Assembly (NCBI GenBank): GCA_018222865.1
Contig: JAAEZM010000008.1
Location: forward strand, 1 to 64,000
Length of the DNA: 64,000 nucleotides
Reading direction: 5' to 3'
Source: Alphaproteobacteria bacterium
GTDB taxonomy: Bacteria > Pseudomonadota > Alphaproteobacteria > Caulobacterales > Maricaulaceae
Position 1 is the stretch's first letter. Each line of letters opens with the position of its first letter. Made by a program: the position numbers and the translations under genes. This document shows, piece by piece, positions 1-45,340 of this stretch. The notes below the pieces were generated by a model. That model had not been told where the DNA came from and did not search any database. It was given only the letters and a program-made list of their open reading frames with translations.

Positions 1-1384
1 CGTGGCTGACTTCGTGAACAACACGATGATCAACAATGTCGACAGCGCGACCAACTCCATGGCTGGCGTTCTGCCTGGCCCGCAGGAGCTGGCTGTTGTT
101 GCAACGGACGTCAACGCAATCGACAACTGGTTCACGGCAACCAGCTATGCCGGTGCTTTCGCGCCGACCGACACGGAAGCCTCTAACTGGGCTGCAGGTT
201 GGACTTTCGGTGTCTTCCAGGACCAGGGCTGCCCGACCGGCACGACCGAGTCTGCTGAAGTCATCAACAACACCCGCGTCTGCCAGCTGACCGGTACGCT
301 CATCGCCGACGTTCGCCTGACCCGTGGCAATATGTACGAGCTGGTTGGCCCAGTCTTCGTCGGCCGTGACTCTGGTCCGGACCCGCTGGCGCCGATCGCA
401 GCAGCGACCCCGGTTAACCTGACGGTTGACCCGGGCGTGACCGTCTTCGGTTCTGCCGGTTCTGACTACGTCGTGGTCACCCGCGGTTCTCAGATCAACT
501 CCAACGGTACAGCGGCTTCCCCGGTTGTCTTCACCTCGCGCAGCGATGTTGAAGGTACGGCTGGTGCGAATGATCGCGGTCAGTGGGGCGGCATGGTCAT
601 CAATGGCCGCGCACCGATCAACGCTTGTATCGATGGTACGGCAACCGGCGGCACGACGGCTTGTGAGAAGTCCGGTGAAGGTTCTTCCGGTCTCTTCGGT
701 GGTGCGTCCACGGATGACGACTCCGGTTCCATCTCCTACACGCAGGTCCGCTATGCTGGCTTCCTGATCAACAATGAAGACGAGCTGAACGGCATCGCCT
801 TCCAGGGTGTTGGTGATGAAACGGACGTCAACTTCATCCAGGTCCACAACAATGCGGACGATGGCATCGAGATGTTCGGTGGTACGGTCGACGTGCGTAA
901 CGTTGTCCTGACGGGTAACGCAGACGACAGCTTCGACTACACCGATGGCTGGGTCGGCCGCGCTCAGTTCGTCATCGTCGCTCAGTCTGGTGATGATGCG
1001 GACCAGGGCTTCGAGTTCGACAACCGCTCTTCCAACAACGACCTGACGCCGCGTTCCAACCCGCGCATCTCCAACTTCACCATCATTGGTGAGCGTGGTG
1101 CTGCCGAGTCCGATGACGGCATCCTGCTGCGCGCCGGTACGGCGGGCGAGCTCTACAACGGTATCGTTGTCGACATGGGCGAGGAATGCCTGGACATTGA
1201 TGACGCAGCGACCTTCGACGGCATCACGCTGGCGAACGCTCGTCCGGCTGCTGAAGACATCATCATCCAGTCTGTCTTCTTCAACTGCCCGACCAACTTC
1301 AAGGACGATGGCGCAGACGACCTCGTTGACGTGGCTGACTTCGTGAACAACACGATGATCAACAATGTCGACAGCGCGACCAAC
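1..1384 (+). repeat. Direct repeat of about 55 bp, period 1329 bp, inside the surface protein gene
   Basis: Bases 1-55 and 1330-1384 are identical by eye, and the protein similarity continues beyond them (AVVATDVNAID and a downstream GWT motif in both). The spacing of 1329 bp is exactly 443 codons, so this marks a module boundary of an in-frame duplication. More copies may lie upstream of the window. Confidence 0.85.
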
Positions 1385-1570
1385 ACCATGACCGGCTTTG
1401 CCTTCATCTCTGGCAATACCGGTGTGGTTCCGGGTGCGTCCGAGCAGGCTGTTGTTGCAACCGACGTCAACGCGATCGACCCATGGTTCGTTGATGCTCA
1501 GTATGCAGGTGCAGTCGAAGACGCAAACGACACCTGGTACCAGGGTTGGACCTACCGTTTCGGTCAGTAA
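2..1570 (+). CDS. Modular surface beta-helix-like protein, 5' end missing
   Basis: The reading frame is open from the window edge, so the true start lies upstream and the 522 visible residues are the C-terminal part. The visible chain is rich in Asn, Asp, Gly and Thr, with motifs such as QWGGMVINGRAPIN, HNNADDGIEMFGGTVDVRN and RSNPRISNFTIIG, which is the look of a right-handed parallel beta-helix surface protein. The first residues (ADFVNNTMINNVDSATN) recur near the C-terminus exactly 443 codons later, so the protein holds at least two large modules. Such proteins are often encoded next to a TonB-dependent receptor, as here. Codon use resembles that of a highly expressed gene. Function is unknown; a secreted or surface-anchored role in nutrient capture or adhesion is inference. 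Confidence 0.75.
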   Translation: MADFVNNTMINNVDSATNSMAGVLPGPQELAVVATDVNAIDNWFTATSYAGAFAPTDTEASNWAAGWTFGVFQDQGCPTGTTESAEVINNTRVCQLTGTLIADVRLTRGNMYELVGPVFVGRDSGPDPLAPIAAATPVNLTVDPGVTVFGSAGSDYVVVTRGSQINSNGTAASPVVFTSRSDVEGTAGANDRGQWGGMVINGRAPINACIDGTATGGTTACEKSGEGSSGLFGGASTDDDSGSISYTQVRYAGFLINNEDELNGIAFQGVGDETDVNFIQVHNNADDGIEMFGGTVDVRNVVLTGNADDSFDYTDGWVGRAQFVIVAQSGDDADQGFEFDNRSSNNDLTPRSNPRISNFTIIGERGAAESDDGILLRAGTAGELYNGIVVDMGEECLDIDDAATFDGITLANARPAAEDIIIQSVFFNCPTNFKDDGADDLVDVADFVNNTMINNVDSATNTMTGFAFISGNTGVVPGASEQAVVATDVNAIDPWFVDAQYAGAVEDANDTWYQGWTYRFGQ

Positions 1571-1582
1571 CGCAATCGAGTT

Positions 1583-1606
1583 CCCGGCCGGTTCACGCCG
1601 GCCGGG
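1583..1606 (+). other. Intercistronic GC hairpin without a T run
   Basis: CCCGGCCGG, a six-base loop and CCGGCCGGG form a perfect 9-bp stem just after the stop codon of the surface protein gene. No T tract follows, so it is more likely a partial terminator or an mRNA-stabilising hairpin between the surface protein and receptor genes than a full terminator. Confidence 0.55.
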
Positions 1607-1630
1607 TGCCCACTTGTTTAATGCAGTCAC

Positions 1631-4306
1631 ATGGTGATTAAGATGAAAACCAATCGAATTGCACTTTCGGCTGCGTTGCTGGCGTCCACAACAATGGTCC
1701 CGGTTGCAGCCGTCGCTCAGGACAGCCAGATCGAAGATCGGATCACGGTTCGTTATCAGTACATTCCTGATGACCGCCGCGTGACCTCTGAGGTCTCTGC
1801 TGTTCTGTCTCTCGACGATCTTGCTCTCACCGGCGATTCTGACCTGGCAGGTGCCCTGGTCCGCATCACTGGTATCTCCACCACCGGCGGCCGTTTTGCC
1901 GTCGTTCGTGGTCTTAACGAGCGCTACTCCAACACGCTCCTGAACGGCTCTCCTATGCCGTCTCCGGAGCCTTTCCGCCGCGCCGCTCCGCTTGACATCT
2001 TCCCGACCAATGTTCTCTCGAACGTTCTGGTTCAGAAAACCTTCTCTCCGGAATACCCGGGTGAGTTCGGTGGTGGTGTCATCGGTATCGAGACCGCAAG
2101 CCTGCCGAATGAAGGCTTCTTGACGGTTTCTGTTGGCGGTTCCTTTGACACGGTGACGACCGGCAATGACGGTCTTACCTATGCAGGTTCCGACAGCGAC
2201 TGGCTCGGCTATGATGACGGCCTGCGCGACCTTCCGGACGAGCTGGCAGCTGTCTTTAATACGACACGCGTTGGTAACGCCCTGCCGGCTGCACAGCAGC
2301 AGGCGATCGGCCGCTCCCTGGTGAATTCAGAGCTCTGGGTTCTGCAGGAAGTCGACACCGATGCGAACGGCTCTATCGAAATCAGCGCGGGCGACCGTTT
2401 TGATTTCGACAACTTCTCCATCGGCCTGCTCGGTGCGTTCTCTTACTCAAATGAGTGGGAAACCCGCGAAGGTCAGCGTGGTAAAGGCTCCATCAGTTCC
2501 AACGGTCTCGTTTACGAGAACGGTCCGGTTCTCGAAGACCGTTCCGGTCTTGCGCCGCTGGGTGAGGGCATCGATAACTTCCGCTCGACTGAGAACACCA
2601 TCGACGCTTCGGCGATGATCTCTGTCGGCATCGACTGGTATAACGACCACGAGATCAATTTCCTGTCTCTGGCTCTGCGTTCCACGTCGAAAGAAGGTCG
2701 TACTGAAGAGCAGTTCAACGCTGGTTCTTCTGCCGTTCTTCGTGGCGACTACACGGAGTGGTTCGAGCGTCAGGTCATCTTCAACCAGCTGTCTGGTGAG
2801 CACGTATTTGCTGATCTCAACGATCTTGAGGTCAACTGGCGTGTCTCTGAGGCAACCGGTGAGCGTGATGCGCCATACCAGCGTTTCGTGAACTATCAGT
2901 TCGACGATGCTGCCGGTGCTTACCGCTATGAAGGCGACATCAACGACAACTTCACGCGCTTCTCCGAGATCGAAGACACGACCTCTGACTACGGCATCGA
3001 CTTCACTTTGCCGGTGACATTGTTCGGTTTGGACTCTGAGCTGAAGGCGGGTTACTCCAACGTTTCTCGCGAGCGTGAAGCCTTTAACCGCCGCTTCTCC
3101 TTCGAGCAGGGTTCTGTCGGTCTGCCGGCTGACCTGCTGTTCTCCCGCATCGACTACATCTTTGCGGAACAGAACATCACCGATACCCGTCTTCGTCTCG
3201 TCGAAACGGGTGGCTTGACCTTCCCGGAAGCCTATATCGGTGAGCTTGACGTCGAAGCTTTCTACGCCGGTGCTGACGTCGCTCTGACCGACTTCATCCG
3301 CATCGCTGTGGGTGCTCGCTTCGAAGATGGCGAGCAGAGCGTTGATACGTTCTCATTCCCGCCGGGAACGCCGAACGGTGCCGATACGGCTCCGATTGAA
3401 GAAGACTATGTCCTGCCAGCACTGACGCTGACCTGGACGCTTGCGGATAACCTCCAGTTCCGTACCGGTTACTCGCAGACGATCGCTCGTCCGCAGTTCC
3501 GTGAGCTGGCGTTCGCAGAATTCTTCAATACGGACACCGATCAGCGTTTCCAGGGTAACCCGTATCTCGTGAACACCGAGATCGAGAGCTATGATGCACG
3601 TCTGGAATATTATTTCGGCCGTGATCAGTTCGCGACGATCGGTGTGTTCCACAAGATCATGGAAAACCCGATCGAGGAATTCATCATCCCGATCGGTGAT
3701 GGTCTGAACACCTCCTTCATCAACGCTCCGGAAGCGACGCTGACGGGTGCCGAATTCGAGTTCGAGAAGACCTTCGACTTCTCCAGCCGTTTCGACCATT
3801 CGTTCTTTGCGGATCGTGAGTTCTTCTTCAAGACGAACTACACCTACATCGAATCCGAAGTGTCTGCTGACGGTACGGTGACGATTGCTCAGGGTGCTTT
3901 CGGGCAGCCGCTGGAATTGGTCCTCAACGCTGCTGGCTTCGTCGAAGACGGTCGCGCCCTGCAGGGTCAGTCCGAGCACTTGTTCAACCTTCAGGTGGGT
4001 TACGAAACCTTCGACGGTCGCGCCCGCGCTGCTCTGCTGTATAACTACACAGGTGAGCGTACGCGTGCTGTGGCAAACCTTTCCGACAATCTGCCGGAAA
4101 TCGTCGAGCAGGTGCCGTCTTCCCTCGACTTCGTTTACAGCCGCACGGTTGAGATTGCTGACAATGACTGGGACTTCGGTTTCTCCGTCCGCAATATCCT
4201 CGGTGACGACTACGAAGCCACACAAACGGCTGGCGATGTGACGCTGCCTGTGGATACCTATGAAGTGGGTACCACGTTCAGCCTCTCCGTCTCCCGTTCG
4301 TTCTAA
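1631..4306 (+). CDS. TonB-dependent outer-membrane receptor
   Basis: The 891-residue product has a signal peptide (KTNRIALSAALLASTTMVPV... ending AVAQ), then a plug domain with the typical run VRGLNERYSNTLLNG, NVLVQKTFSPEYPGEFGGG and a plug-to-barrel transition near residue 160. A long beta-barrel follows and ends in SLSVSRSF, with the terminal Phe expected for BAM-dependent insertion. Family knowledge says it imports a bound ligand using TonB-ExbBD energy; the substrate cannot be read from sequence. Two in-frame starts exist, 1631 and 1643, neither with a good ribosome site; 1643 gives a slightly more typical signal peptide. It lies 60 bases after the surface protein gene and probably shares its transcript. 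A strong terminator follows. Confidence 0.93.
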   Translation: MVIKMKTNRIALSAALLASTTMVPVAAVAQDSQIEDRITVRYQYIPDDRRVTSEVSAVLSLDDLALTGDSDLAGALVRITGISTTGGRFAVVRGLNERYSNTLLNGSPMPSPEPFRRAAPLDIFPTNVLSNVLVQKTFSPEYPGEFGGGVIGIETASLPNEGFLTVSVGGSFDTVTTGNDGLTYAGSDSDWLGYDDGLRDLPDELAAVFNTTRVGNALPAAQQQAIGRSLVNSELWVLQEVDTDANGSIEISAGDRFDFDNFSIGLLGAFSYSNEWETREGQRGKGSISSNGLVYENGPVLEDRSGLAPLGEGIDNFRSTENTIDASAMISVGIDWYNDHEINFLSLALRSTSKEGRTEEQFNAGSSAVLRGDYTEWFERQVIFNQLSGEHVFADLNDLEVNWRVSEATGERDAPYQRFVNYQFDDAAGAYRYEGDINDNFTRFSEIEDTTSDYGIDFTLPVTLFGLDSELKAGYSNVSREREAFNRRFSFEQGSVGLPADLLFSRIDYIFAEQNITDTRLRLVETGGLTFPEAYIGELDVEAFYAGADVALTDFIRIAVGARFEDGEQSVDTFSFPPGTPNGADTAPIEEDYVLPALTLTWTLADNLQFRTGYSQTIARPQFRELAFAEFFNTDTDQRFQGNPYLVNTEIESYDARLEYYFGRDQFATIGVFHKIMENPIEEFIIPIGDGLNTSFINAPEATLTGAEFEFEKTFDFSSRFDHSFFADREFFFKTNYTYIESEVSADGTVTIAQGAFGQPLELVLNAAGFVEDGRALQGQSEHLFNLQVGYETFDGRARAALLYNYTGERTRAVANLSDNLPEIVEQVPSSLDFVYSRTVEIADNDWDFGFSVRNILGDDYEATQTAGDVTLPVDTYEVGTTFSLSVSRSF

Positions 4307-4479: not shown

Positions 4480-5385
4480 TTGAGCACTTTGCCGATGTTC
4501 AAGAGCGGATCGAGATTCCGCCTGACAGATCGACGCCTGATCACTTCGGCTGTCGAGATCGTGCTTCTTTTTGCTCTGGCTTACCTGATCGCTCGTCTGG
4601 TTTTCTTTATCGGTTTTGGCGCCAGCAGTGGCGATTATCAGATTGACAGCGCTGGCTCCGCTGCACGCAGCGCCCAGTCCGGTGCGCTAAGCCCGCAAAT
4701 CGCTCAAGCGGATTTTTCGACCTTGTTCGCCGACCGCCGGGTCGAGGTGCAGGATGAAGCCCCCGTCGCGGCTCTGCCTGACACTCAATTGGAACTGGTT
4801 CTGCGCGGAATTCGCCGCGGAACCGAGCCAACCAATGGCGCAGCGCTTATTCAGGGCGCCAGCGCGCAGCAAGTTTTTGTCTCCGTGGGTGAAGAGATTT
4901 CGGACGGCGTCGAGCTGCGCGAAGTCCATGTCGACTACGTGATAATCTCCCGCCGCGGTATCCGCGAAGTCCTGCGTATTCGTGAGGCGAGCGAGCGTCA
5001 GGCGACCGATGATGCTGCCGGGGCAGAAGTTTCCGGCGCGCCAAGCGCTCAGCTGAGTGCCGCGCCGGCGGTCTATAGTGCTTCACAGATCGCACGCGCC
5101 AGTGCCCGCCCGGGTGAACGCTTTGATGTCGCGGGCATGTTCGTGGTGGAGCCGCGCTATATTGATGGTGCGCTGGTCGGCATGGCTTTCATTGATGGCA
5201 ATACAGCCCTGCTTCAGTCCATCGGCCTGAGAATGAATGATATTTTGATCGAGATTGACGGGCGATCCGTTGGTAGTGTCGATCAGATAGAAGCCCTCTT
5301 AGATGATCTGAGAGGCAATGATACAGTCGATGTTTCGATTGTTCGTTCCGGTTTTGGTTTAACTTTCAGCGTGGATCTCCCCTGA
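4480..5385 (+). CDS. gspC: Type II secretion inner-membrane protein GspC
   Basis: First gene of the T2SS operon. The 301-residue product has a short cytoplasmic N-terminus, one membrane helix (about residues 22-44), a periplasmic homology region (TQLELVLRGIRRG..., then QGASAQQVFVSVGEEI) and a C-terminal PDZ domain (about 215-300, with GLRMNDILIEIDGRSV). By family knowledge GspC links the inner-membrane platform to the secretin GspD and takes part in substrate recruitment. The chosen start is TTG at 4480, preceded by AGGA at 4467-4470; an ATG at 4495 is possible. Its stop overlaps the gspD start as TGATG. Confidence 0.9.
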   Translation: MSTLPMFKSGSRFRLTDRRLITSAVEIVLLFALAYLIARLVFFIGFGASSGDYQIDSAGSAARSAQSGALSPQIAQADFSTLFADRRVEVQDEAPVAALPDTQLELVLRGIRRGTEPTNGAALIQGASAQQVFVSVGEEISDGVELREVHVDYVIISRRGIREVLRIREASERQATDDAAGAEVSGAPSAQLSAAPAVYSASQIARASARPGERFDVAGMFVVEPRYIDGALVGMAFIDGNTALLQSIGLRMNDILIEIDGRSVGSVDQIEALLDDLRGNDTVDVSIVRSGFGLTFSVDLP

Positions 5386-7322
5386 TGTTCCAGTTCGCCA
5401 AACGCGCGCTTGCGCCTGCTCTTGCTCTGGCTTTGCTTCTTGCACCGGGTGTGCGTGCCCAGGAGCACCTGGTCAATTTCAACCAGGCCGAGATCCAGGC
5501 GGTGATCGATGATGTCTCCGTCGTCACCGGCAATATGTTCATTGTCGATCCCAATGTGCGTGGCCGGGTCACGATCACATCCCAGGCTCCGCTGACGGCG
5601 GATCAATACTTCCAGGTCTTCCTGTCGACCATGCGGGTACACGGTTTTGCAGTTGTACCCACCGCGTCCGGCGCCTATCAGATCGTTCCGGATGTGGCCG
5701 GCGCGCGCAGTGTCAGCCCGGTCAATGCGGATATCCGTGGTGACCGCTATGTCACCCAGGTCCTGCGTTTGCACTATGTCGGCCATCGCGACGCGCTCAA
5801 CGTGCTGCGTCCCATGATCAGTGCGCAGGGCTCGATCAATGCAACCGAGTCCGGCAATACGCTGGTGATTGTCGATACGGCAGAAAATGTGAACCGTCTG
5901 CGCGATGTGGTCCGCGAGCTCGATCGTGACACATCTGTGTTCGATATGGTCGAGCTGCAAAACGTCTCGGCTTCCGAGATGGTGCGTATCATCCAGACCG
6001 TGCGCGATCGCGACACGGTGGGTGAGGACGACCAGATTTTCAATGTGACCGTTGCCTCTATCCCGTCTTCAAACACGGTCTTGCTGCGTGGCAGCTCGCG
6101 CGCCGTTGCTGAGATGGCGCGTCTGGTGCGACAGGTCGACAGTGTCAGCCAGTCCAATCAGAGCTTCCGGGTTATTGCGCTTGATCACGCCGATGGCGAG
6201 GCGCTTCTGCCGATCCTGCAGGAAGTTGTGGAGACCTTCTCCAGCGATGAAGATGGCGGCCGCCGCGCCTCTGTCTCTCATCATGCGCCGACCAATTCCA
6301 TGGTCATCAATGCCAATCCGGACATCCAGCGTGAACTCGAGCGTGTCGTTGATCAGCTTGATGTGCGTCGCCCGCAAGTCCTGGTCGAAGGCATTATCGT
6401 CGAGATTTCCGACACGACGGCGGAGGAGCTGGGTGTCCAGCTTTTGCTGACCGGCGGGGAAGGGTCTGACAGCCCGCTGCTTATGACGCGCTATTCGACC
6501 AGCTCGCCTGATCTTCTGGCTTTGAGCGGTGCTATTGCCTCGCCGCTGAGCACGAGCTCGAACGAGACGCTTGAAACCGCTGCCCTGAACTCGCTTCTGG
6601 GCGTCAGTGGTGCGGCTGTCGGCTTTGGTGGCCAGAACTCTGATGGCACGCTTTTCGGGCTTGTTCTCAATGCGGTTGAGGCCGATGCGGACTCCAACGT
6701 CCTGGCCACCCCGTCCATCCTGGCGATGGATAATGAGGATGCCTCTTTCATCTCCGGCCAGGAAATTCCGATCACTACGGGTGAAGTCCTGGGCAATGAT
6801 AACTCCAACCCGTTCCGGACCGTGGAGCGTGAGGAGGTGGGTGTGAAATTGATGGTGCGCCCGCAGATCACAGATGGCGATACCGTGCGTCTCTACATTG
6901 AGCAGGAAGTGTCCAGCGTTGCCGGCACGGTCACTACCGAGTCCACAGATCTGATCACCAATCTGAGATCTATCCAGACGACGGTCCTGGCCGATAATGG
7001 CGAGATCATCGTGCTTGGCGGTCTCATCGAGCAGGACGAGCAGGACACGGTGACAGGCGTGCCAGGCCTGGCGAACGTACCTGGTGTTGGTCGCTTATTC
7101 CGGTCTGAGAGCGAGAATACGACCCGCCGCAATCTCATGGTTTTCATCCGTCCGACCATCATTCGCAGCGAAGCGGATATGCGCGCGGTGACCGAAAACC
7201 GTTATGATTATATCCGCGGCGAACAGCGCGCTGCCGACCCGAATGGCGTTTCCAGCCTGGAGACGGTTGTCGACATGCTGATGGTGGACTTGCCGCGTGG
7301 CGAGGCTGGTGATGAGCGCTAA
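5385..7322 (+). CDS. gspD: Type II secretion outer-membrane secretin GspD
   Basis: The 645-residue product has a signal peptide (about residues 1-25, ending VRAQ), an N0 domain (NFNQAEIQAVIDDVSVVTG), N1-N3 ring domains to about residue 320, and a C-terminal secretin channel with LATPSILAMDNEDASFISG, VGVKLMVRPQI and VPGLANVPGVGRLFRS. It forms the multimeric outer-membrane pore of the T2SS. The C-terminus after the secretin core is about 45 residues long, the place where an S-domain would bind a pilotin. The ATG start overlaps the gspC stop, which implies translational coupling. Confidence 0.96.
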   Translation: MFQFAKRALAPALALALLLAPGVRAQEHLVNFNQAEIQAVIDDVSVVTGNMFIVDPNVRGRVTITSQAPLTADQYFQVFLSTMRVHGFAVVPTASGAYQIVPDVAGARSVSPVNADIRGDRYVTQVLRLHYVGHRDALNVLRPMISAQGSINATESGNTLVIVDTAENVNRLRDVVRELDRDTSVFDMVELQNVSASEMVRIIQTVRDRDTVGEDDQIFNVTVASIPSSNTVLLRGSSRAVAEMARLVRQVDSVSQSNQSFRVIALDHADGEALLPILQEVVETFSSDEDGGRRASVSHHAPTNSMVINANPDIQRELERVVDQLDVRRPQVLVEGIIVEISDTTAEELGVQLLLTGGEGSDSPLLMTRYSTSSPDLLALSGAIASPLSTSSNETLETAALNSLLGVSGAAVGFGGQNSDGTLFGLVLNAVEADADSNVLATPSILAMDNEDASFISGQEIPITTGEVLGNDNSNPFRTVEREEVGVKLMVRPQITDGDTVRLYIEQEVSSVAGTVTTESTDLITNLRSIQTTVLADNGEIIVLGGLIEQDEQDTVTGVPGLANVPGVGRLFRSESENTTRRNLMVFIRPTIIRSEADMRAVTENRYDYIRGEQRAADPNGVSSLETVVDMLMVDLPRGEAGDER

Positions 7323-8835
7323 CGCCCAGGACGCAAGCGATCAGCAGGCCCGCACCGAGCCTCTCATCACCTATTCCTTTGCCCGGCAAAAAGGCGTGGC
7401 CTTCCAGCCGCTGGAAGGCGGAGCGTTCTTGCTGCGGAAGGGAGCGGATCGTCGCGCGCTGCTCGAACTTCGTCGTGTCACCGGCGCAAGCTATCCGGTA
7501 CGTGAATGCGAGACGGCTGATTTCGACAAGGCTCTGTCAGACATTTACGCTTTCGACGCGATTGGTGCGGAAGCCATTGACGAGCATGAGGCCGATGAGA
7601 GCCTGACCCGTCTCGTTGATGAAATTCCCAAAACCGAAGACCTGCTCGACAGTGCGTCAGATGCGCCGATCATCCGCCTGATCAACGGCATGATTGCGGA
7701 GGCCGTCCGCACGTCAGCTTCGGACGTTCATGTCGAGCCCTATGAAGACCGGGTTTCCATCCGCTATCGCATTGATGGCGTGTTGGGTGAGACGGTGGCT
7801 GTTTCACCAAAACTCGCATCACCGCTTGTGTCGCGTATCAAAGTCATGGCGCGGCTCGATATCTCCGAAAAGCGCATTCCCCAGGATGGACGTCTGACCA
7901 TTACTCTGGGGGGCAAGGCGGTGGATGTCCGGGTCTCCACCCTGCCATCGCGCTATGGCGAGCGGGTTGTTCTGCGTCTCCTCGATAATAGCCAGGCCCG
8001 CTATAGCCTCGATGATCTGGGCATGCCGGGCGACATGCTGACGGACTTCCGCCGCGCCCTGGGTCAGCCCAATGGCATTATTCTGGTCACCGGCCCGACC
8101 GGTGCTGGTAAGACAACCACGCTCTATGCAGGCCTCAACCTGCTCAATGACGCGACGCGGAATGTCCTGACCGTTGAGGACCCGGTCGAGTATGCCATTG
8201 ACGGGATTGGTCAGACCCAGGTGAATGCCAAGGTAGGGATGACGTTTGCGGCCGGTCTTCGCGCAATTCTACGTCAGGATCCGGATATCGTCATGGTCGG
8301 CGAGATCCGCGATGTGGAAACCGCGCAAATCGCTGTCCAGGCCAGTCTGACCGGGCACCTGGTCCTGTCGACCGTGCACACCAATTCGGCGATCGCGGCT
8401 ATTGCCCGCCTGCGGGATATGGGCGTTGAGTCCTATCTTCTGGCTTCCACGCTAACGGCGATTGTGGCGCAGCGCCTGGTGCGCCGCCTGTGTCCGCACT
8501 GCCGCGAAGCGTATGATCCCGATGCGGCAGAGCTCGAACTGCTCGGCCTGCCTGCCAATACCGATGCCAAACTCTATCGGCCCAAAGGGTGTTCGCAATG
8601 CAAACAGCTGGGCTATGAAGGCCGGACCGGTATTTATGAGCTGGTCATGGTCGATGATACGCTGCGTCGTCTGATCCATGATGATGCGCGTGAATCCGAT
8701 ATGGCCGGTCATGCCTTTGATCAGCGCAAGACCCTGTTCGAAAACGGCGTTGACCTTGTCCTGAATGGGACCACATCGCTCTCGGAAGTGCTGCGCGTTT
8801 GCCGGGATGACGGAGAGCGTAATGCCGGCGTTTGA
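7312..8835 (+). CDS. gspE: Type II secretion ATPase GspE
   Basis: Hexameric cytoplasmic ATPase that powers pseudopilus assembly. The 507-residue product shows Walker A GPTGAGKTT (261-269), an Asp box, a Walker B region with RQDPDIVMVGEIRD (321-334), a His box near TVHTNSA and a tetracysteine zinc site (Cys394, 397, 427, 430). The N-terminal region that docks on GspL precedes it. I chose ATG 7312 over an upstream GTG at 7297 because GAGG lies six bases before it. It overlaps the end of gspD by 11 bases and gspF by 14. Confidence 0.96.
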   Translation: MSANAQDASDQQARTEPLITYSFARQKGVAFQPLEGGAFLLRKGADRRALLELRRVTGASYPVRECETADFDKALSDIYAFDAIGAEAIDEHEADESLTRLVDEIPKTEDLLDSASDAPIIRLINGMIAEAVRTSASDVHVEPYEDRVSIRYRIDGVLGETVAVSPKLASPLVSRIKVMARLDISEKRIPQDGRLTITLGGKAVDVRVSTLPSRYGERVVLRLLDNSQARYSLDDLGMPGDMLTDFRRALGQPNGIILVTGPTGAGKTTTLYAGLNLLNDATRNVLTVEDPVEYAIDGIGQTQVNAKVGMTFAAGLRAILRQDPDIVMVGEIRDVETAQIAVQASLTGHLVLSTVHTNSAIAAIARLRDMGVESYLLASTLTAIVAQRLVRRLCPHCREAYDPDAAELELLGLPANTDAKLYRPKGCSQCKQLGYEGRTGIYELVMVDDTLRRLIHDDARESDMAGHAFDQRKTLFENGVDLVLNGTTSLSEVLRVCRDDGERNAGV

Positions 8836-10072
8836 GTATGAAGCGCTCGACACCAGGGGAAAGAAGTCCAAGGGCGTGATCACCGCGGATAGTGAGGTTG
8901 CCGCTCGACGTGAACTGCGTGGCCGCTCCCTGGCCCCACTGAGTATTCGTGATGCAGACCGCGGCGCCGGAAGAGCCTCCGCTCCGCTCGATGGTGAAGG
9001 TTTCTCCCTCGACAAGTTGCGGCTGGGGCAGGCTCAGCTCTCTTCTCGTGAGCTTATGCTCTTCACCCGGCAGATGGCGAGCCTAATCGGGGCGGGTATG
9101 CCCTTGGCTGAAACATTGGGGCTGATCGCGGAGCAGGGTTCGAAACATCATGTCCGCAAAATCCTCATGGCGGTGCGTGTGCGCGTCACGGAGGGGGAGC
9201 GCTTCTCGACAGCGCTGGATGGATTTCCCGGCTCATTCCCCGCGGTCTATCGTGCCATGATTGCTGCCGGCGAGAGTGCAGGCGGTTTGCCGGAAGTGCT
9301 TGAACGTCTGGCGGAGTATCTCGAGAAGGACCAGGCTGTCCGAAACCGCATCACCGGCGCAATGATCTATCCAGCGGTTCTGACCGTTGTGGCGCTTGGG
9401 GTGATCACCTTGCTGATGACGTTCGTGGTGCCGCGCATTGCCGAGCAATTCACCGGTATGGGGATGGACTTGCCGATGCTGACCCGGGTGATGATCGCAA
9501 CATCGGGCTTTCTGCAGAGCTTCTGGCCGTTCCTGCTGGCCGGTTTGATGGCGCTGGTGATCGCCTCAACGGTTTTGATCCAGCAAAAACCGGTACGCGC
9601 GATTGTCGATGCGGCGCTGGTCCGCCTTCCCTTGCTGGGGGGCTTTTTGCGTCAGGTCGAAGCGGCGCGGTTTTCCCGTACGATGGGCATCCTCATTGAA
9701 TCGGGAAGTGTCCTTCCGGATGCGCTCCGCGCTGCGCAACGCGCTGCGGGCAATATGGCCTTTCAGACGCGCCTGGGCGATGTGATCCGGGATGTCGAAA
9801 CTGGCAAGGGACTGTCCGATGCCATGCGCGCGCGGGGCTGGTTTCCGCCCTTGGTGCTGTTCATGATCGCCGCGGGCGAGCGTTCCGGTGCATTGGGTGA
9901 TATGTTTCGACGTGCAGCAGACCAGTTGGAGCAAGACATCGATACCTCCGTCTCCATCGGGCTGAACCTGTTGGAGCCGGGTATTATTCTCATTCTCGGG
10001 GTAGCGGTTGCGCTGATCGTCTTGTCCATCCTGCTCCCCATGCTGCAACTCAATACCATGGCGTTCGGATAG
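8822..10072 (+). CDS. gspF: Type II secretion inner-membrane platform protein GspF
   Basis: The 416-residue product begins MPAFEYEALDTRGK, the standard GspF/PilC opening, and has two T2SSF domains (about 85-205 and 290-410) with three predicted membrane segments (about 178-200, 228-250, 385-410). GESAGGLPEVLERLAEYLE and GERSGALGDMF are the paired family motifs. It is the platform protein coupled to GspE during pseudopilus assembly. ATG 8822 has GGAG six bases upstream and overlaps the gspE end; the frame is open farther upstream, but that stretch is only gspE in another frame. Confidence 0.96.
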   Translation: MPAFEYEALDTRGKKSKGVITADSEVAARRELRGRSLAPLSIRDADRGAGRASAPLDGEGFSLDKLRLGQAQLSSRELMLFTRQMASLIGAGMPLAETLGLIAEQGSKHHVRKILMAVRVRVTEGERFSTALDGFPGSFPAVYRAMIAAGESAGGLPEVLERLAEYLEKDQAVRNRITGAMIYPAVLTVVALGVITLLMTFVVPRIAEQFTGMGMDLPMLTRVMIATSGFLQSFWPFLLAGLMALVIASTVLIQQKPVRAIVDAALVRLPLLGGFLRQVEAARFSRTMGILIESGSVLPDALRAAQRAAGNMAFQTRLGDVIRDVETGKGLSDAMRARGWFPPLVLFMIAAGERSGALGDMFRRAADQLEQDIDTSVSIGLNLLEPGIILILGVAVALIVLSILLPMLQLNTMAFG

Positions 10073-10096
10073 AGCGTCGGTTTCAGGAGTTTTGAT

Positions 10097-10561
10097 ATGA
10101 CAACATCAACGCCGCAGAAGACGGATATGGCACCGCGTGAGGATGAAGATCGCGAAGCGGGCTTCTCCCTGACCGAGATCATGATTTCCGTATTTATCAT
10201 TGGGCTGATGGGAACGATCGTTGTGCTCAATGTTCTGCCCATGGGCGATCAGGCCATGGTTCAAAAGGCGCGGGCTGATATCGCGACGTTTGAGCAGGCG
10301 CTGCAGGCCTATCGTCTGGATATGCGCGCCTATCCCACCTCTGAACAAGGGCTCGAGGCTCTGGTGACCGCGCCGCGTGATGCCGAGAATTATCGCACTG
10401 GCGGATATATTGATCGCTTGCGCGATGACCCGTGGGGCAATCCGTACCAATACGTCTATCCGGGCCGCGATGGCGCCTTGTTCGATATCTACTCTCTTGG
10501 CGCAGATGGCCGTGAGGGCGGTGAAGAGCTCGATGCTGATATCGGCAACTGGGAGGGCTGA
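10097..10561 (+). CDS. gspG: Major pseudopilin GspG
   Basis: Main subunit of the T2SS pseudopilus. The 154-residue precursor has an unusually long charged leader (about 22 residues) ending EAG, then FSLTEIMISVFIIGLMG: cleavage after Gly with Glu at +5, followed by the hydrophobic assembly helix. The globular part carries the GspG signature YPTSEQGLEALV and a C-terminal DPWGNPYQY with an acidic loop, probably the calcium site. A good ribosome site (CAGGAG) precedes ATG 10097. It begins 24 bases after gspF, the largest gap in the operon, which fits a more highly translated gene. Confidence 0.96.
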   Translation: MTTSTPQKTDMAPREDEDREAGFSLTEIMISVFIIGLMGTIVVLNVLPMGDQAMVQKARADIATFEQALQAYRLDMRAYPTSEQGLEALVTAPRDAENYRTGGYIDRLRDDPWGNPYQYVYPGRDGALFDIYSLGADGREGGEELDADIGNWEG

Positions 10562-11070
10562 TGCCCGCGCGTTTGCCAAAGGATGCCGGGGTTTCGCTGA
10601 TCGAGATCCTGGTCGCGGTGATGGTGATCGGTGTGGTTTCCTCAGCCATTGTTCTGTCCCTACAATTGGGCGATAGCGCGATTGAAGAAGAGGCGGATCG
10701 CCTGAGTGCCCGTCTGATTTTTGCACGCGATGAAGCGATCACGACCGGCCAGCCCGTCGGATTGATCCTCGAGGAGTTCGGGACGCGCTACAGTTTCGAG
10801 CGCTATGTCGATGGCCGGTGGTGGCCCTTGGCAGAAAATCCGGCTTTTGCGCGCCACGACCTGGCCGAGGATGTCGAGCTGGAAGTCGTTGATGCCGCAC
10901 TCGCGCAGGCGGGTCAAAGCGAAGAGGGCGCGCCGCGTTATCCGCTTTTCTGGTTCGACCCTGCCGGCCTGACCGAACCCTTCACCTTGCGCCTTCGCGA
11001 TGCGGAGCAGACGCTGGAACTGCGCTGGACGGCGCGCGGCAGTGAGGGCTGGGAGCGCGTGGCGGGATGA
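10561..11070 (+). CDS. gspH: Minor pseudopilin GspH
   Basis: The 169-residue precursor has the prepilin site DAG then VSLIEILVAVMVIGVVSSA, with Glu at +5 and Val rather than Phe at +1. The body (SARLIFARDEAITTGQPVGL) matches GspH minor pseudopilins, which help form the pseudopilus tip. It starts inside the gspG stop (TGATG) and ends in an ATGA overlap with gspI. Confidence 0.9.
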   Translation: MPARLPKDAGVSLIEILVAVMVIGVVSSAIVLSLQLGDSAIEEEADRLSARLIFARDEAITTGQPVGLILEEFGTRYSFERYVDGRWWPLAENPAFARHDLAEDVELEVVDAALAQAGQSEEGAPRYPLFWFDPAGLTEPFTLRLRDAEQTLELRWTARGSEGWERVAG

Positions 11071-11426
11071 GACGCGACGACGGATTCACCCTCATCGAAA
11101 TGATGGTTGCGCTGGCCATTCTGGCGCTCGCCGGCCTCGCCGTGCTCAATATGATGCAGGCCTCGACGCGTAATGCTGCTGCCGTCGAGACACGCTCCCT
11201 GGCCATGCTCGCGGCCGAAAACCTCCTGAACGAGCAAGTCCTGTCTCCGCAAACACCACAGGGCGGCAATGGTCTCTACGAGCTCGCCGGTATCGCCTAT
11301 GCCTGGGACTTCAGGGTTGAAGACACGACGGATCAAGATCTATTGCGTTTGGTGATCGTGGTCCGTGGACCTGATAGCGACCAGATCCTGGCGGAGGTGG
11401 AAACCTATCGCCGCAGGGGGCGCTGA
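11067..11426 (+). CDS. gspI: Minor pseudopilin GspI
   Basis: The 119-residue precursor has a very short leader MRRDDG, then FTLIEMMVALAILALAGLA with Glu at +5. The segment LAMLAAENLLNEQ is typical of GspI. With GspJ and GspK it forms the tip complex that starts pseudopilus assembly. Overlaps: ATGA with gspH and TGATG with gspJ. Confidence 0.92.
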   Translation: MRRDDGFTLIEMMVALAILALAGLAVLNMMQASTRNAAAVETRSLAMLAAENLLNEQVLSPQTPQGGNGLYELAGIAYAWDFRVEDTTDQDLLRLVIVVRGPDSDQILAEVETYRRRGR

Positions 11427-12067
11427 TGTCCAAACAGGCCGGTTTCTCCCTGCTCGAAATCCTCGTTGCGACCTTTGTCTTTTCTCTGGTCACGGCGATT
11501 GCGGTCAGCCTGATGGTGGCCACGATGACCGCCCAGGAGGTCAATGAGGACGCGCTTGAGCGCTCTGCCGGGCTGGATCGGTTGCGAGTGGTTTTGCGCG
11601 AGGACTTTGGACAGATCGCGAACCGAAGCCTGCGCGATGAAGGCGGCTATACGCGGCGCTACAGTTTTGCAGGAGATAGTGACGGTCTGGTGCTGCCGGG
11701 AGGAGGAGAGACTGATGAATTGCTCCTGTCCTTTGCGCGACACGGCCGGGCCAATCCGGGGCAGATCCGTCCGCGCAGCTCCCTGATTTATGTCGAATAC
11801 TTTTTGGACGATGGCGCGCTTATCCGACGGACCCGGGACTATCCCGATCTGGCGGACACCACGCTCACCAGCGAAGAGACCCTGTTTGACAGGTTAGAGG
11901 ATGTCGAGCTGGCCTTTCTCATCGGTTCGATCTGGGTCGCGAGTTATCAGGCGGTGGCTGAGGCTGGTGGCGCCAATCAACCGCTCGCTGTGCGCCTGCG
12001 CTATACCCATCCCGCCTTCGGTGAAATGGAACACATTGTGGCGACCGGGGAAGGGCTGAACCGATGA
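11426..12067 (+). CDS. gspJ: Minor pseudopilin GspJ
   Basis: The 213-residue precursor has the site QAG then FSLLEILVATFVFSLVTA with Glu at +5. The body includes the GspJ-type stretch LRVVLREDFGQIANR and a late VAVRLRYTHPAFGEMEHI-like region before the C-terminus. It partners GspI and GspK at the pseudopilus tip. It overlaps gspI by one base and gspK by four. Confidence 0.92.
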   Translation: MSKQAGFSLLEILVATFVFSLVTAIAVSLMVATMTAQEVNEDALERSAGLDRLRVVLREDFGQIANRSLRDEGGYTRRYSFAGDSDGLVLPGGGETDELLLSFARHGRANPGQIRPRSSLIYVEYFLDDGALIRRTRDYPDLADTTLTSEETLFDRLEDVELAFLIGSIWVASYQAVAEAGGANQPLAVRLRYTHPAFGEMEHIVATGEGLNR

Positions 12068-13050
12068 GCACCAAGCCCGATAAAGAGGCAGGCGCGGCGC
12101 TGATCAGTGCCTTGCTCCTGGTCGCGCTCATGACCTCCATCGCGCTCGCACTGGCAAGTGACATGCGTTACGCGATGCGGCGATCCGCCAATCTCGATAT
12201 TCGTGATCAGGCCTATTGGTATGGGCTGGGTGCCCGCGATTATGCCGAGGCGTTGCTCGGGCGTGCCCTGGATGAGCCGGATACGGCTTTCCGGCCCGAT
12301 GCCAGCTGGCTGACGGGATCACAAGTTTTCCCGATCGAAGATGGTCAATTGGTCGGTCAAATCCGTGATGGAAACAACTGCTTTAATATCAACAGCGTAG
12401 TCGTTCGTGGAGAGAATAATCTTCTGGTCGAAGATCCGCGTCAGCGGCGACGTTTTGAAATGCTGATGCAAGCGCTTGGCGTGCCGCTGCAGGATGCCAG
12501 CCTGATCGCAGCACAGGCAATTGACTGGATCGACAGCGATACTCGCCCCGTGCTCGGCGGCGCTGAGGATGATGCCTATGACGCGCCGGTGCGCGGGTAT
12601 CGTACAGGCAATACGCTGATGGCAGAGCGCGAGGAATTGCTGAGTCTGGCGGCTATGACGCCGGCGATCTATCAGGCGCTCGAACCTCTGGTCTGTGCTC
12701 GGCCGGTCGCCGAGCATTTGCCAACAAACATCAATACGCTGACCCTCGACCAGACGCCTTTGCTCATGGCCATGTTCGAAGGGGAGCTGAGCCGGAGCGA
12801 TGCGGAAGGCGTGCTGATCCGCAGGCCACAGGCCGGCTATGCTGCGATCACGGAATTCTGGAGCGATCCGGTCATGGTGGCGCTGGAGCCGGACATGTCT
12901 GTGCAATCGATATTCGGACTGACGACGAATTACTTTGAGATTGAAATCAATGTGCTTTATGCGGGCATGCGGTTTGAACTCTTCGAGATTGTCGAGTGGC
13001 GTGGCGAAAACCTTCGTCGATTGTCCCAACGATATGGAAGCTTTTCATGA
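12064..13050 (+). CDS. gspK: Minor pseudopilin GspK, tip subunit
   Basis: The 328-residue product is the largest pseudopilin, as expected for GspK. After the leader ending EAG the mature part starts AALISALLLVALMTSIALA; position +5 is Ser, not Glu, in keeping with GspK, which characteristically lacks Glu5. The body has DGNNCFNINSV and AQAIDWIDSD, family motifs of the inserted alpha domain. It caps the pseudopilus tip. The ATGA overlap with gspL implies coupled translation. Confidence 0.93.
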   Translation: MSTKPDKEAGAALISALLLVALMTSIALALASDMRYAMRRSANLDIRDQAYWYGLGARDYAEALLGRALDEPDTAFRPDASWLTGSQVFPIEDGQLVGQIRDGNNCFNINSVVVRGENNLLVEDPRQRRRFEMLMQALGVPLQDASLIAAQAIDWIDSDTRPVLGGAEDDAYDAPVRGYRTGNTLMAEREELLSLAAMTPAIYQALEPLVCARPVAEHLPTNINTLTLDQTPLLMAMFEGELSRSDAEGVLIRRPQAGYAAITEFWSDPVMVALEPDMSVQSIFGLTTNYFEIEINVLYAGMRFELFEIVEWRGENLRRLSQRYGSFS

Positions 13051-14264
13051 GTCAGGATCTGGTGATCCATCTGCGCGATGACGGCCGAGTGAATTGGTCC
13101 ATTCTGGCGCGCGAAAACGGCGAACGCCTGACTGCTGGTGCTGCGCATCTTGATGCGCTGCCGGAGCTTCCCGCCGTCGAGATCTCTCGCACAATCTTGC
13201 TGCTTCCGGCTGAGCGGGTCTTTGCCTCTCAGATCGAAGTACCCGCACGCAGTGAGCGTGAGGCCCGTCAGGCCGCGCCTTTCCTGATCGAGGATGAGCT
13301 GGCGTCCAGCCTGGACAGCACGCGCATTGTGACAGGCGCCAAGAATGCAGATGGCCGCCGCTGGGTATTCGCTGTTGAAGACAGCTGGATTGAGGCGATT
13401 ATCCACCAACTCGCGCCCTTGATTTCGCGCCCGCTTCACATTCTGCCAGATGCATTGGCTGCGGCGGACGAAGATGCCGCGCTCACGCTTTTTGACCGCG
13501 ATGGTCATGTTCTCTTCTGGTATGGCGAAAGCGCGCGCGAACTGGCCCAGCAGGCCGGCGGAGCGGTCGATCCCGTTCTCTTCAACCACATCGCCCACGC
13601 ATTGGTGGGGGGAGCCGCAGGCGGACAGATAAAGGTCTCACCGACCTTGGGGCTGACAGGTCCGGGCTTTGTCGCGGCGGCGCGCGAGGATCTTGATCTG
13701 CGCACGCGTCGCTTTGAGGACGGCTTCCTGGCGAGTTTGCCGGCGCTCGCTGGTGAGGGCTGGCTATCCACCTTGGACTGGGGGGCATGGCTCAAGCCCT
13801 TGCGCCGCGCCGGCATGGCTGCGGCCGCCTTGGCGTTTGGCTTCGCGGCGCTCTTTATTGGTGAGGGTGTCTATTATCGCATACAGGCTGATCGCTTTGA
13901 TACGGCAAGTGTCGAGGTCTTCCGCCAGGCCGTGCCGGAGGTAACACGCCGCGTTATCCCGGCGGAAGCGGAACGCCTTTTGCGGGACCGGATCACGGCT
14001 TTGGGCGGGGGCGAGAGCTCATCCTTCCTGCAGCTCACCTCCGCGCTCGCGCAATTGATCGAAGGTAATGAGCGCGTCCGTGTCGAGCATATCCGGTTTG
14101 ACCAGTCACGCGGCGAGCTTCGGGTCTCTGCGGTCTATACAGATTTCGCCGACTTCGATGCGCTCAGCGCTGCCGGCGAGGCGATGGGGATTAGTCTGCA
14201 GGATGAAGGTGCCCGTGAGGGGACAGATGGCCTGCAGGGCGAATTTGTGGTGAGGCTGCAATGA
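13047..14264 (+). CDS. gspL: Type II secretion platform protein GspL
   Basis: The 405-residue product has an N-terminal cytoplasmic actin-like domain (to about residue 245) that binds GspE, one membrane helix (about 255-275, LAFGFAALFIGEGVYY), and a periplasmic ferredoxin-like domain for GspM contact. The motif LLLPAERVFASQIEVP is typical of GspL. ATG 13047 overlaps the gspK stop; an open frame farther upstream belongs to gspK sequence. Confidence 0.92.
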   Translation: MSQDLVIHLRDDGRVNWSILARENGERLTAGAAHLDALPELPAVEISRTILLLPAERVFASQIEVPARSEREARQAAPFLIEDELASSLDSTRIVTGAKNADGRRWVFAVEDSWIEAIIHQLAPLISRPLHILPDALAAADEDAALTLFDRDGHVLFWYGESARELAQQAGGAVDPVLFNHIAHALVGGAAGGQIKVSPTLGLTGPGFVAAAREDLDLRTRRFEDGFLASLPALAGEGWLSTLDWGAWLKPLRRAGMAAAALAFGFAALFIGEGVYYRIQADRFDTASVEVFRQAVPEVTRRVIPAEAERLLRDRITALGGGESSSFLQLTSALAQLIEGNERVRVEHIRFDQSRGELRVSAVYTDFADFDALSAAGEAMGISLQDEGAREGTDGLQGEFVVRLQ

Positions 14265-14767
14265 ACGCGCTATTCGCACAGCTGAAAGAATACTGGCAGG
14301 GGCGCACGGATCGCGAACAGATCCTCTATGCAGTGATGGGCGTTCTGACGGCCTATCTCCTTGCCCATTTCGCCATCATCCAGCCCCTGGCAAACTTCCA
14401 CGACCGCTCGCGTGCCAGTTATGCGGCATCGATGGAGCTCTTCCGTGCGATTGAGGCGGATGCGATCAGCTATCGTGAATTGAGTGCCGGTGCGGCGCAG
14501 ACCTCGACCACCACTCAGCAATCCATGCGCTCGATTGTCGGATCATTGGCTCTAACCCATTCGATCTCCATTGCTCGCCTTATTCCTGGGGAGGATGGCT
14601 CGCTGACCGTGAATATCGAGCGCGCTGAAACCGCGGCGGTGATGCAGTGGCTGATCGATCTGGAAGAGCGGTTTGGCATTCGCGTGACCAGTAGTTCCAT
14701 GGATGCGGCGGGCGGAACCTTCGTTCAGGCCAACTTTGTCCTGCGCCGGTCCGGGGGGGCGTCATGA
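14261..14767 (+). CDS. gspM: Type II secretion platform protein GspM
   Basis: The 168-residue product has a short cytoplasmic N-terminus with WQGRTDREQILYAVMG, one membrane helix (about 22-42) and a small periplasmic ferredoxin-like domain ending in ANFVLRRSGG. It pairs with GspL in the inner-membrane platform. Weak sequence conservation is normal for this family, so order between gspL and gspN is part of the evidence. ATGA overlaps lie at both ends. Confidence 0.88.
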   Translation: MNALFAQLKEYWQGRTDREQILYAVMGVLTAYLLAHFAIIQPLANFHDRSRASYAASMELFRAIEADAISYRELSAGAAQTSTTTQQSMRSIVGSLALTHSISIARLIPGEDGSLTVNIERAETAAVMQWLIDLEERFGIRVTSSSMDAAGGTFVQANFVLRRSGGAS

Positions 14768-15492
14768 TCCTGCGTGGTGGATTATTCCTGGTCTTCATAC
14801 TCGGCTGGCTTCTGGCGCTGATGCCCCTCAAGGGCGTGATGCTCGCCGCCGGTGGCGCATCGGCTTTCGGCTATCAGGATGTCTTCGGGACGATCTGGTC
14901 CGGTCGGATTTACGGGCTCAATCTGAATGGTGAGCGCGTCGACGAAATCACGGTTTCACTTGAACCTTTGCCGCTGGTGACGGGACAGCTGAGCGCGGAC
15001 TGGCGGATCTCCGATTCGAGCCTGCGGGGCTCAGGTCATGCCTCCTGGGCAGGTGACCGGGTCACCGCGCGCGATACCGCGCTGGATGTGTCGGTTTATC
15101 GTTTCGGTTTTGGCGATATTCCCGGGCTGACCGGCGATGAAAGTGTGCGGATATCCCTGCTTGAGCTGGATATGCGTGGCGATGTCTGTCATCGCGCGGT
15201 TGGAGATGTGCGCAGCGATGTGCTGGCCCAGCTCGCCGAGAGCTATGGCTTTACCGGTCCGGTGCTTGAGGGCATGCTGACGTGCATTGATGAGCGATTG
15301 GCGCTCGATCTGTCTGGTCAGTCCGATGCGCTGGACCTTACGGGGCGAGTTTATTTCACCCGGCAAGGCTATGAGTGGGATCTTCAGGCCGAGACAAGCC
15401 AGGGCGAGCTTGCCGACGTCCTTTCCCTGATGGGATTGGAGCGGGATGGAGCGGTCTGGCGGCACACAGGGAGTGCCCAATATGCGCGCTAA
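14764..15492 (+). CDS. gspN: Type II secretion protein GspN
   Basis: The 242-residue product has an N-terminal membrane anchor (ILRGGLFLVFILGWLLALMP) and a periplasmic beta-rich domain beginning GVMLAAGGASAFGYQDVFGTIWSG, typical of GspN. Two cysteines (in DVCHRAV and MLTCIDE) could form a disulfide. GspN is present in only some T2SS and its exact role is not settled. Its last codons overlap the start of the downstream lipoprotein gene by 11 bases. Confidence 0.87.
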   Translation: MILRGGLFLVFILGWLLALMPLKGVMLAAGGASAFGYQDVFGTIWSGRIYGLNLNGERVDEITVSLEPLPLVTGQLSADWRISDSSLRGSGHASWAGDRVTARDTALDVSVYRFGFGDIPGLTGDESVRISLLELDMRGDVCHRAVGDVRSDVLAQLAESYGFTGPVLEGMLTCIDERLALDLSGQSDALDLTGRVYFTRQGYEWDLQAETSQGELADVLSLMGLERDGAVWRHTGSAQYAR

Positions 15493-16015
15493 AATCTCTA
15501 TGATTTTAATGGCGGTCGTCACCGGATGGGGCCTGGCCGGGTGCGTGACATCGGGCGATGCTCGCGAATCCGGTGCGCAAATGCCGGTCTTTGGCAATGC
15601 GCGCCCGGGAGAGCCGGCGCCGCAAGTGCCGGGGCTGGATGAATTGCCGCCACAAAACCTGGAAGCCGGGACGTGTGCGACTTTCTTCTGGTCCGCGGAT
15701 GATGCCCACCGCTTCCTGGCATTTGAGAATGAGACGGAAGGCTTTGCCAATATTTTCGTCAATGGCAGCGCGCAAGGTTTCTACAACCCGCCTCGCGAGC
15801 GCAATTACGTGGCCGGCGATTCATTCCGTCGCAGCTATGTCGATCCCGGACGCGACCTGAATATCCAGATTTCCGGCCAGATCGGTGATCCGCTGCCAAC
15901 GGGCCAGCGCATTGAGCGGGTGGTCATGCGGGTCAACCAGCCCAATGGCCAGATCCTGGTGATCCCGATGATCGGTCACTATGCCTGCCGGACGCGGTCT
16001 CAGGCCACAGGATAA
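15482..16015 (+). CDS. Lipoprotein at the end of the T2SS operon, candidate pilotin or accessory
   Basis: The 177-residue product starts MRAKISMILMAVVTGWG followed by the lipobox LAGC, so it should be an acylated envelope lipoprotein. The residues after Cys (VTSGD) include no obvious inner-membrane retention signal. The mature part has a Pro-rich spacer, then a compact domain with two cysteines (AGTCATFFW and HYACRTR) that may pair. I do not recognise the family. Start overlap with gspN and a nearby AGGGAG show it is translated with the T2SS genes. Since no GspS-type pilotin is seen here, a role in GspD targeting is a reasonable inference from place and lipidation only. Its 3' end overlaps that of the prepilin peptidase gene. 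Confidence 0.8.
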   Translation: MRAKISMILMAVVTGWGLAGCVTSGDARESGAQMPVFGNARPGEPAPQVPGLDELPPQNLEAGTCATFFWSADDAHRFLAFENETEGFANIFVNGSAQGFYNPPRERNYVAGDSFRRSYVDPGRDLNIQISGQIGDPLPTGQRIERVVMRVNQPNGQILVIPMIGHYACRTRSQATG

Positions 16016-16482
16016 AGGCCCGGGCCGTAGGCGCGGAAGATCCAGCACACCGCAAACCCAAGGGCCAGCCATGGGCCCAGTGCTATTCGCGTCATTGCAG
16101 AGGGCATCTGGCCGCGTATGGCGCCAAGCGTGATGATGTAGAGCAGGGCCGAGGCTGAGGCGATCAAGAGAATAAGCGGGAGTAGATAAGGACCGCACCA
16201 GGCTCCACCGGCAGCGAGGAGTTTGGCATCTCCGCGCCCCAGTGCATGCAGGCCGCGCACACGCAGGTAAAACTGCTCCATCGCAAAGAAGAATCCATAG
16301 CCGATCAGGGCTGCCACAAGATGCAGGAGCAGCGTTCCTAGAATAAGGCTGACACCAAGCCCTGCAGCAATCAGGGGCAGGGTGAAGATGTCCGGCAGGC
16401 GGAAACTCTTCAGATCAATCCACGACAGAACCGAAAGCACGCCGATAAGGCACAGAGTGGCGAGATGCAGAAGAAAATCCAT
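16000..16482 (-). CDS. Short prepilin peptidase of the T2SS (GspO/CpaA type)
   Basis: The 160-residue integral membrane protein has the two aspartate motifs of A24 prepilin peptidases, SWIDLKSFRLPD and GRGDAKLLAAGGAW, in a core of about five to six helices. It lacks the N-terminal cysteine-containing cytoplasmic/methyltransferase part of the full-length PilD/GspO enzymes, so it should cleave but perhaps not N-methylate. Position beside the T2SS operon suggests it processes GspG-K; a second short peptidase (cpaA) sits in the pilus locus. It starts 14 bases after the glycosyltransferase gene on the same strand and converges with the lipoprotein gene. Confidence 0.87.
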   Translation of the reverse strand: MDFLLHLATLCLIGVLSVLSWIDLKSFRLPDIFTLPLIAAGLGVSLILGTLLLHLVAALIGYGFFFAMEQFYLRVRGLHALGRGDAKLLAAGGAWCGPYLLPLILLIASASALLYIITLGAIRGQMPSAMTRIALGPWLALGFAVCWIFRAYGPGLYPVA

Positions 16483-37549: not shown

Positions 37550-37642
37550 ATATGTATGAAAAAATGACCGAATGACCGCGCCGCTCAACCGGACGTTAAG
37601 CCTCTTCGGTTAGCCTCAGTGATTAAGTATTCGAGGTGGTCT

Positions 37643-39128: not shown

Positions 39129-39130
39129 GG

Positions 39131-40600: not shown

Positions 40601-40616
40601 GTGTGGAGTTGATGTG

Positions 40617-41279: not shown

Positions 41280-41299
41280 GGGGGCGAAAGGAGCTGAAC

Positions 41300-42853: not shown

Positions 42854-42859
42854 TCGGGA

Positions 42860-44332: not shown

Positions 44333-44334
44333 GG

Positions 44335-45333: not shown

Positions 45334-45340
45334 GCGCGTC

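Follow-up and report, generated by a model that had tools for sequence, protein, structure and literature searches.

The lipoprotein gene and its operon

In the window, by which we denote the entire analysed stretch of 64,000 nucleotides from a Maricaulis genome, a gene encoding a predicted lipoprotein of 177 amino acids (15482–16015, forward strand) is located at the end of an operon for a type II secretion system (T2SS). On the same strand, this operon extends from gspC (4480–5385; PF11356, E 9.5e-21) via the gene of the secretin GspD (5385–7322), whose product carries a signal peptide without a lipobox and a C-terminal tail without an Ala-Phe motif, and the block gspE to gspL (7297–14264), to gspM (14261–14767; PF04612, E 7.9e-33) and gspN (14764–15492; PF01203, E 1.3e-26). 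Within the central block, gspE, F, K and L were assigned from Pfam or NCBIfam matches, and gspG to J were named by operon order and by their matches to the annotated gspG-J of Indioceanicola. With starts as called, adjacent genes overlap at 11 of 12 junctions between gspC and the lipoprotein gene. An A24 prepilin peptidase gene (gspO; 16000–16482, reverse strand; PF01478, E 1.6e-17) follows in convergent orientation.

The open reading frame that an earlier note on this DNA had described as overlapping gspN is confirmed: it runs from an ATG to a TAA codon, its 5' end overlapping the stop of gspN by 11 nucleotides. A putative ribosome-binding site (AGGGAG; 15468–15473, forward strand) is found inside gspN, 8 nucleotides upstream of this ATG. 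An alternative, longer start exists at 15446; we have taken 15482 as the start since it is preceded by AGGGAG and since the starts of relatives fall into the same register.

At the other end of the operon, the region 2–4306 encodes a truncated ElpS-like protein, which matches no Pfam or NCBIfam model, and a TonB-dependent receptor directly 5' of gspC. Of 18 stretches fetched, 17 have the same pair in front of gspC, while in the remaining one, G072, no gspC was seen; the ElpS-like protein has a plausible lipobox in 15 of the 17. Elsewhere in the window, a Tad pilus cluster (37619–46339) encodes an A24 peptidase, CpaB/RcpC, a secretin, CpaD, an AAA/ParA-type ATPase, a T2SSE ATPase and two T2SSF proteins.

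As read from its sequence, the lipoprotein starts with a signal peptide ending in the lipobox LAGC (15482–15544), whose cysteine (Cys21, 15542–15544) is followed by V-T-S. A linker comprising residues 22–54 (15545–15643) leads to a domain that begins around residue 55, the AlphaFold2 confidence being below 50 at residues 12–33. In the AlphaFold2 model, which was built with 12 sequences, residues 65–169 (15674–15988) are predicted as an all-beta domain of eight strands, with pLDDT values of 92–96 in blocks of ten residues except for one block at 79; helices of four residues or longer are absent from this prediction. Besides Cys21, the protein contains two further cysteines, Cys65 (15674–15676) and Cys169 (15986–15988), which in the model are placed at the termini of the first and the last strand of the well-predicted domain and which may thus form a disulfide. 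Fold searches with the model returned no significant match: the best Foldseek E value was 0.046, and the best Z score of 7.3 (3ew2_C, an avidin/calycin-like barrel, rmsd 4.1 over 95 aligned residues) falls into a range that may reflect only a common arrangement of strands.

Conservation of the family and its association with the T2SS

Searches of 61 relatives yielded a match at E values up to 1 in 46 genomes. In a comparison of 41 selected rows, from which three second matches of comparable E values (G019, G050, G026) as well as weaker matches were omitted, the gene is located 13–310 nucleotides past the end of the gspN profile on the same strand in 35 cases. An alignment of 39 rows was assembled from 43 matches after omission of one truncated sequence, one duplicate and two sequences without a start under the rule applied (L048, L049); the seemingly invariant Cys21 of this alignment includes L033, whose cysteine is situated outside a lipobox. 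Scores against Pfam families are not meaningful for either the window protein or the 39 relatives in the alignment, and the single match of the window protein to an NCBIfam model has an E value of 0.14. DUF6491, which was weakly recognized in 4 of the 39 members (best E 0.011), was rejected; in the two rows inspected, the match covers the N-terminal signal-peptide end, or this region together with the linker. Similarly, a PDB sequence search with the family profile yielded four matches with E values of 0.42 or worse, each of them falling into the N-terminal portion of the profile.

Among 96 distinct members, 95 are full-length, the remaining one being truncated at the end of a contig. All 95 full-length proteins contain the cysteine pair at a spacing of 88–107 residues (92 scored by script and three, with a shorter spacing, by eye), and since the pair is kept at the expected distance throughout, neither the open reading frame nor the pair can be attributed to chance. 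The cysteines of the disulfide that the earlier note had considered possible are thus conserved, the bond as such being a feature suggested by the model. Lipidation, also claimed there, is predicted from the LAGC sequence of the window protein and from a lipobox in 86 of the 95 full-length members, as judged by a permissive pattern with four rows settled by eye (the three of shorter spacing and one with a missed lipobox), whereas the remaining 9 have a signal peptide without a lipobox, so that lipid anchoring is not universal in the family. The window protein hence belongs to an alphaproteobacterial family without annotation, which is defined by a signal peptide, a loose linker, an all-beta domain and a pair of cysteines.

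We then used the family profile to survey 200 genomes of the order, where 124 match at E values up to 0.001; two of these (G559, G510) were excluded since their matches are weak, partial and not located at the T2SS, leaving 122 carriers. For each genome, the profile searches scored between 8 and 18 first-look candidates, and absences are consequently soft. All 122 carriers contain a T2SS marker (gspM, gspN or gspD): gspM or gspN was found in 121, and the last, the fragmented genome G571, encodes a T2SS GspD over the cut-off. In 107 carriers, the gene lies directly behind gspN with a gap between profile ends of 13–208 nucleotides (median 50), and a closer search places it behind gspN in three more (G019, G026, G516).

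The association is retained where the operon is split. In eight genomes (seven of the genus g9 and G029), the lipoprotein gene is part of a gspD-gspN cluster apart from gspM, an arrangement that groups it with the secretin side of the system. The respective stretches (L085–L090, L041, L053) end just 5' of gspD, with a piece of gspC visible in one (G561), and in all eight a convergent gspO is found behind the lipoprotein gene. Outside the order, the gene terminates an operon of a TonB receptor and gspC-N in G209, G862 and G880 and on a plasmid of 454 kb from Indioceanicola profundi, no other plasmid record having matched. On this plasmid, the operon (L201, 2964–15101) is complete and of the same type, with gspL annotated as two open reading frames. 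An exception is provided by G790, a genome of the same class outside the order without a T2SS-type secretin over the cut-off, which encodes a homologue (L204, 12876–13382). This stand-alone protein has no lipobox, and its gene is located near a tryptophan halogenase gene and adjoins an aldehyde dehydrogenase gene. In a sample of the class, 4 of 385 genomes match, one of them weakly (G419, E 4.9e-4). In a sample of the phylum, where 8 or 9 candidates were scored per genome, all 9 matches among 369 genomes are in Alphaproteobacteria, which softly favours the alphaproteobacterial type of factor envisaged in the earlier note, the class make-up of the 369 genomes not being shown.

The gene of the lipoprotein thus accompanies the T2SS genes and travels together with them, and its product contains an exported beta domain that is conserved in the family. 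The description as a T2SS accessory is well supported: homologues that are common without a T2SS, which according to the earlier note would have spoken against it, were not what we found, as all carriers in the order are T2SS-marked. Equally well supported is the assignment as a T2SS-linked exported family, consisting mostly of lipoproteins, that is part of the alphaproteobacterial gspC-N operon.

Independent losses of gspN and of the lipoprotein gene

The two neighbouring genes can be lost separately. In eight genomes, the lipoprotein gene is found 11–97 nucleotides behind gspM with no gspN detected between them, indicating that its product does not serve solely as partner of GspN. In G044, gspN is located elsewhere, and in G035 (L047, 1698–2403) it is disrupted, with two fragments in different frames next to an intact lipoprotein gene. 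Conversely, 25 gspM-positive genomes do not contain the lipoprotein gene, including G559 and G510 with their discarded off-locus matches, and 16 genomes contain gspN but not the lipoprotein gene (for G046, the gspN match is below the Pfam cut-off). The comparison of gspM positions is based on the 146 genomes with listed gspM places, with a 147th match (G501, E 9e-4) outside this set. A gspN-like match in G072 was not counted. Losses of either gene alone argue that the lipoprotein is neither a strict partner of GspN nor essential to every T2SS. In G024, no gspM, gspN or lipoprotein gene was found, yet GspD is over the cut-off, and T2SS-positive genomes lacking the lipoprotein are therefore under-counted.

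Four Maricaulis genomes among the 25 that are gspM-positive without the lipoprotein gene illustrate this loss: all genes from gspC to gspN were found, and the convergent peptidase gene directly follows gspN. The lipoprotein-positive M. maris (G018) is nested among these lipoprotein-negative relatives, which implies that the gene was lost at least twice or was regained. In G585 (L083, 1899–3209), gspN and the lipoprotein share a continuous open frame uninterrupted by a stop codon, in which the hydrophobic lipobox segment is kept. We have not counted this frame as proof of a fusion because translation of the second part could begin at an internal ATG.

Possible roles and relation to known systems

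We consider it most plausible, at somewhat less than an even chance, that the lipoprotein serves one alphaproteobacterial T2SS lineage as a dedicated auxiliary component. In such a role, it would dock at the outer-membrane end of the system beside the secretin GspD and GspN, where it could aid assembly or the passage of cargo, being helpful without being essential and distinct from a classical Lol-dependent pilotin. Judged by the sorting rules of other bacteria, the lipidated members would most likely reside in the outer membrane, and from this placement and the neighbouring genes we infer an action close to GspD and GspN.

The earlier note had also named a pilotin as a candidate role. In this reading, the lipid of the protein would carry GspD to the outer membrane via the Lol pathway, while its domain would bind the C-terminal tail of the secretin. 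There is room for a new protein of this kind, as PulS/OutS (PF09691) and AspS (PF16549) were found in none of the 31 genomes formed by that of the window and 30 relatives, which bears out the statement in the same note that no GspS/AspS-type pilotin is visible. Also compatible with a pilotin are the clustering with gspD in split systems, the retention of the gene where gspN is lost, and a GspD with a signal peptide in which no lipobox was recognized by eye in the window and in relatives with a readable N-terminus (several of 40 being unreadable). The proposal is weakened by the secretin itself. Secretins that depend on a pilotin and whose structures are solved have been described to carry Ala-Phe in their tails (PMC6532946), whereas such a motif is present in the last 55 residues of only 1 of 40 GspD proteins and absent from that of the window. 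Moreover, the GspD tails of Maricaulis look alike with and without the lipoprotein gene, and the distance of GspD to its relatives is not raised in gene-negative Maricaulis (0.35–0.41 compared to 0.40). On the side of the lipoprotein, neither the four-helix fold of PulS/OutS nor the alpha/beta fold of AspS is found in the AlphaFold2 prediction. PF09691 does not match the window protein, and the 7 families to which at least one of 39 members shows a match do not include it; PF16549 likewise matches neither the window protein nor any of these members. The members without lipobox and the 25 gspM-positive genomes without the gene add to this disagreement. We thus regard a pilotin as unlikely, and the classical form as less likely than an auxiliary role in light of the GspD tails, the all-beta model and the members without a lipid anchor. 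The beta-rich proteins MxiM and YscW act as pilotins in type III secretion systems; neither is among the fold-search matches listed, and going by the predicted fold the protein may still be a beta-rich pilotin.

The second neighbour of the auxiliary component proposed here, GspN, was linked to lipoprotein export in December 2025. It is described as an AsmA-like protein with a beta-groove that is required for the T2SS-dependent surface transport of lipoproteins such as InvL in A. baumannii and of PulA in K. pneumoniae, and the authors suggest, and call for, further factors involved in the hand-off (PMC12802150). In our model of GspN, an N-terminal helix is followed by many beta strands, and its best fold matches are ApoB, BamA and porins with Z scores of 8.0 or less; as these did not confirm the groove, this feature rests on the cited report. 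The lipoprotein could accordingly receive surface-bound lipoproteins from GspN or connect GspN to the secretin, similar to YnbE, which works with YdbH (PMC11784454). The overlap and joint movement of the two genes and the presence of both domains in one open reading frame of G585 are in favour of this partnership, but eight operons keep the lipoprotein gene without gspN and 16 genomes show the inverse pattern. A distance comparison on the operon tree, which covers nine of the twelve Gsp proteins (D, E, F, H and J to N) and four lipoprotein-negative tips, shows a GspN distance to lipoprotein-positive relatives of 1.36–1.58 in the four lipoprotein-negative Maricaulis compared to 1.23 in M. maris. 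This effect is unspecific, as GspH rises as much (0.98–1.25 compared to 0.90), with the same contrast between G014 and G018 as GspN, and GspM rises in three of the four tips. It is consequently a hint of a link to GspN at most. Mirror-tree correlations in 27 genomes (gspF 0.52, gspH 0.44, gspD 0.40, gspN 0.19) singled out neither GspD nor GspN as partner. Furthermore, ElpS is reported to reach the surface of Caulobacter without gspC-N (PMC2996285). Taken together, we find a partnership with GspN rather unlikely, and a GspN-linked role in lipoprotein export unlikely.

Conversely, the protein might be cargo of the system, a surface lipoprotein whose gene resides in the operon by happenstance. 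In favour of this, it is encoded with a T2SS that has GspN, and the same cluster carries the ElpS-like gene with its frequent lipobox. T2SS lipoprotein substrates of A. baumannii exhibit a GGG or ND(N/D) motif after the lipidated cysteine (PMC12802150). In contrast, among 82 members scored none has ND(N/D) and one is G/S-rich, this being a rule of A. baumannii and sorting differing between species; the residues following the cysteine are often A, then S or T. As far as this rule carries over, the protein would be a part of the machine rather than cargo. The single fixed position of the gene across families is equally at odds with a substrate, and we judge this possibility very improbable.

The family has escaped description: the protein of Indioceanicola is labelled 'hypothetical protein' in RefSeq, no Pfam or NCBIfam model exists, and parts lists of the T2SS in these Alphaproteobacteria consequently miss the gene. 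A literature search, mostly at the level of titles and the start of abstracts, found no description of a lipoprotein beside gspN. With this gene, environmental bacteria offer a concrete candidate for a further factor in GspN-related lipoprotein export, and the natural losses of gspN alone or of the lipoprotein gene alone could be used to separate the two roles.

Among known systems, the T2SS pilotins PulS/OutS and AspS/GspS-beta/EpsS are likewise small lipoproteins linked to the T2SS, and AspS shares a conserved disulfide (PMC3542185), whereas the present family differs by its all-beta model, the lack of a sequence match, the members without lipobox and the rarity of Ala-Phe in GspD tails. ElpS (CC0170) of Caulobacter crescentus resembles it as a lipoprotein encoded at the same T2SS cluster, and in Maricaulis an ElpS homologue with its TonB receptor precedes gspC; ElpS is, however, a released surface protein of about 50 kDa encoded 5' of gspC (PMC2996285), while the lipoprotein behind gspN is small and located at the opposite end. 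In YnbE-YdbH of E. coli, an outer-membrane lipoprotein is paired with an AsmA-like inner-membrane protein, but this pair is described to act in phospholipid transport with no T2SS involved (PMC11784454). Finally, the system exporting InvL and PulA shares with the window a clear gspN (PF01203), which here adjoins the lipoprotein gene. No dedicated lipoprotein partner is named in the available text of that report (PMC12802150), whereas in the operons described here one is conserved, and it also persists without gspN.
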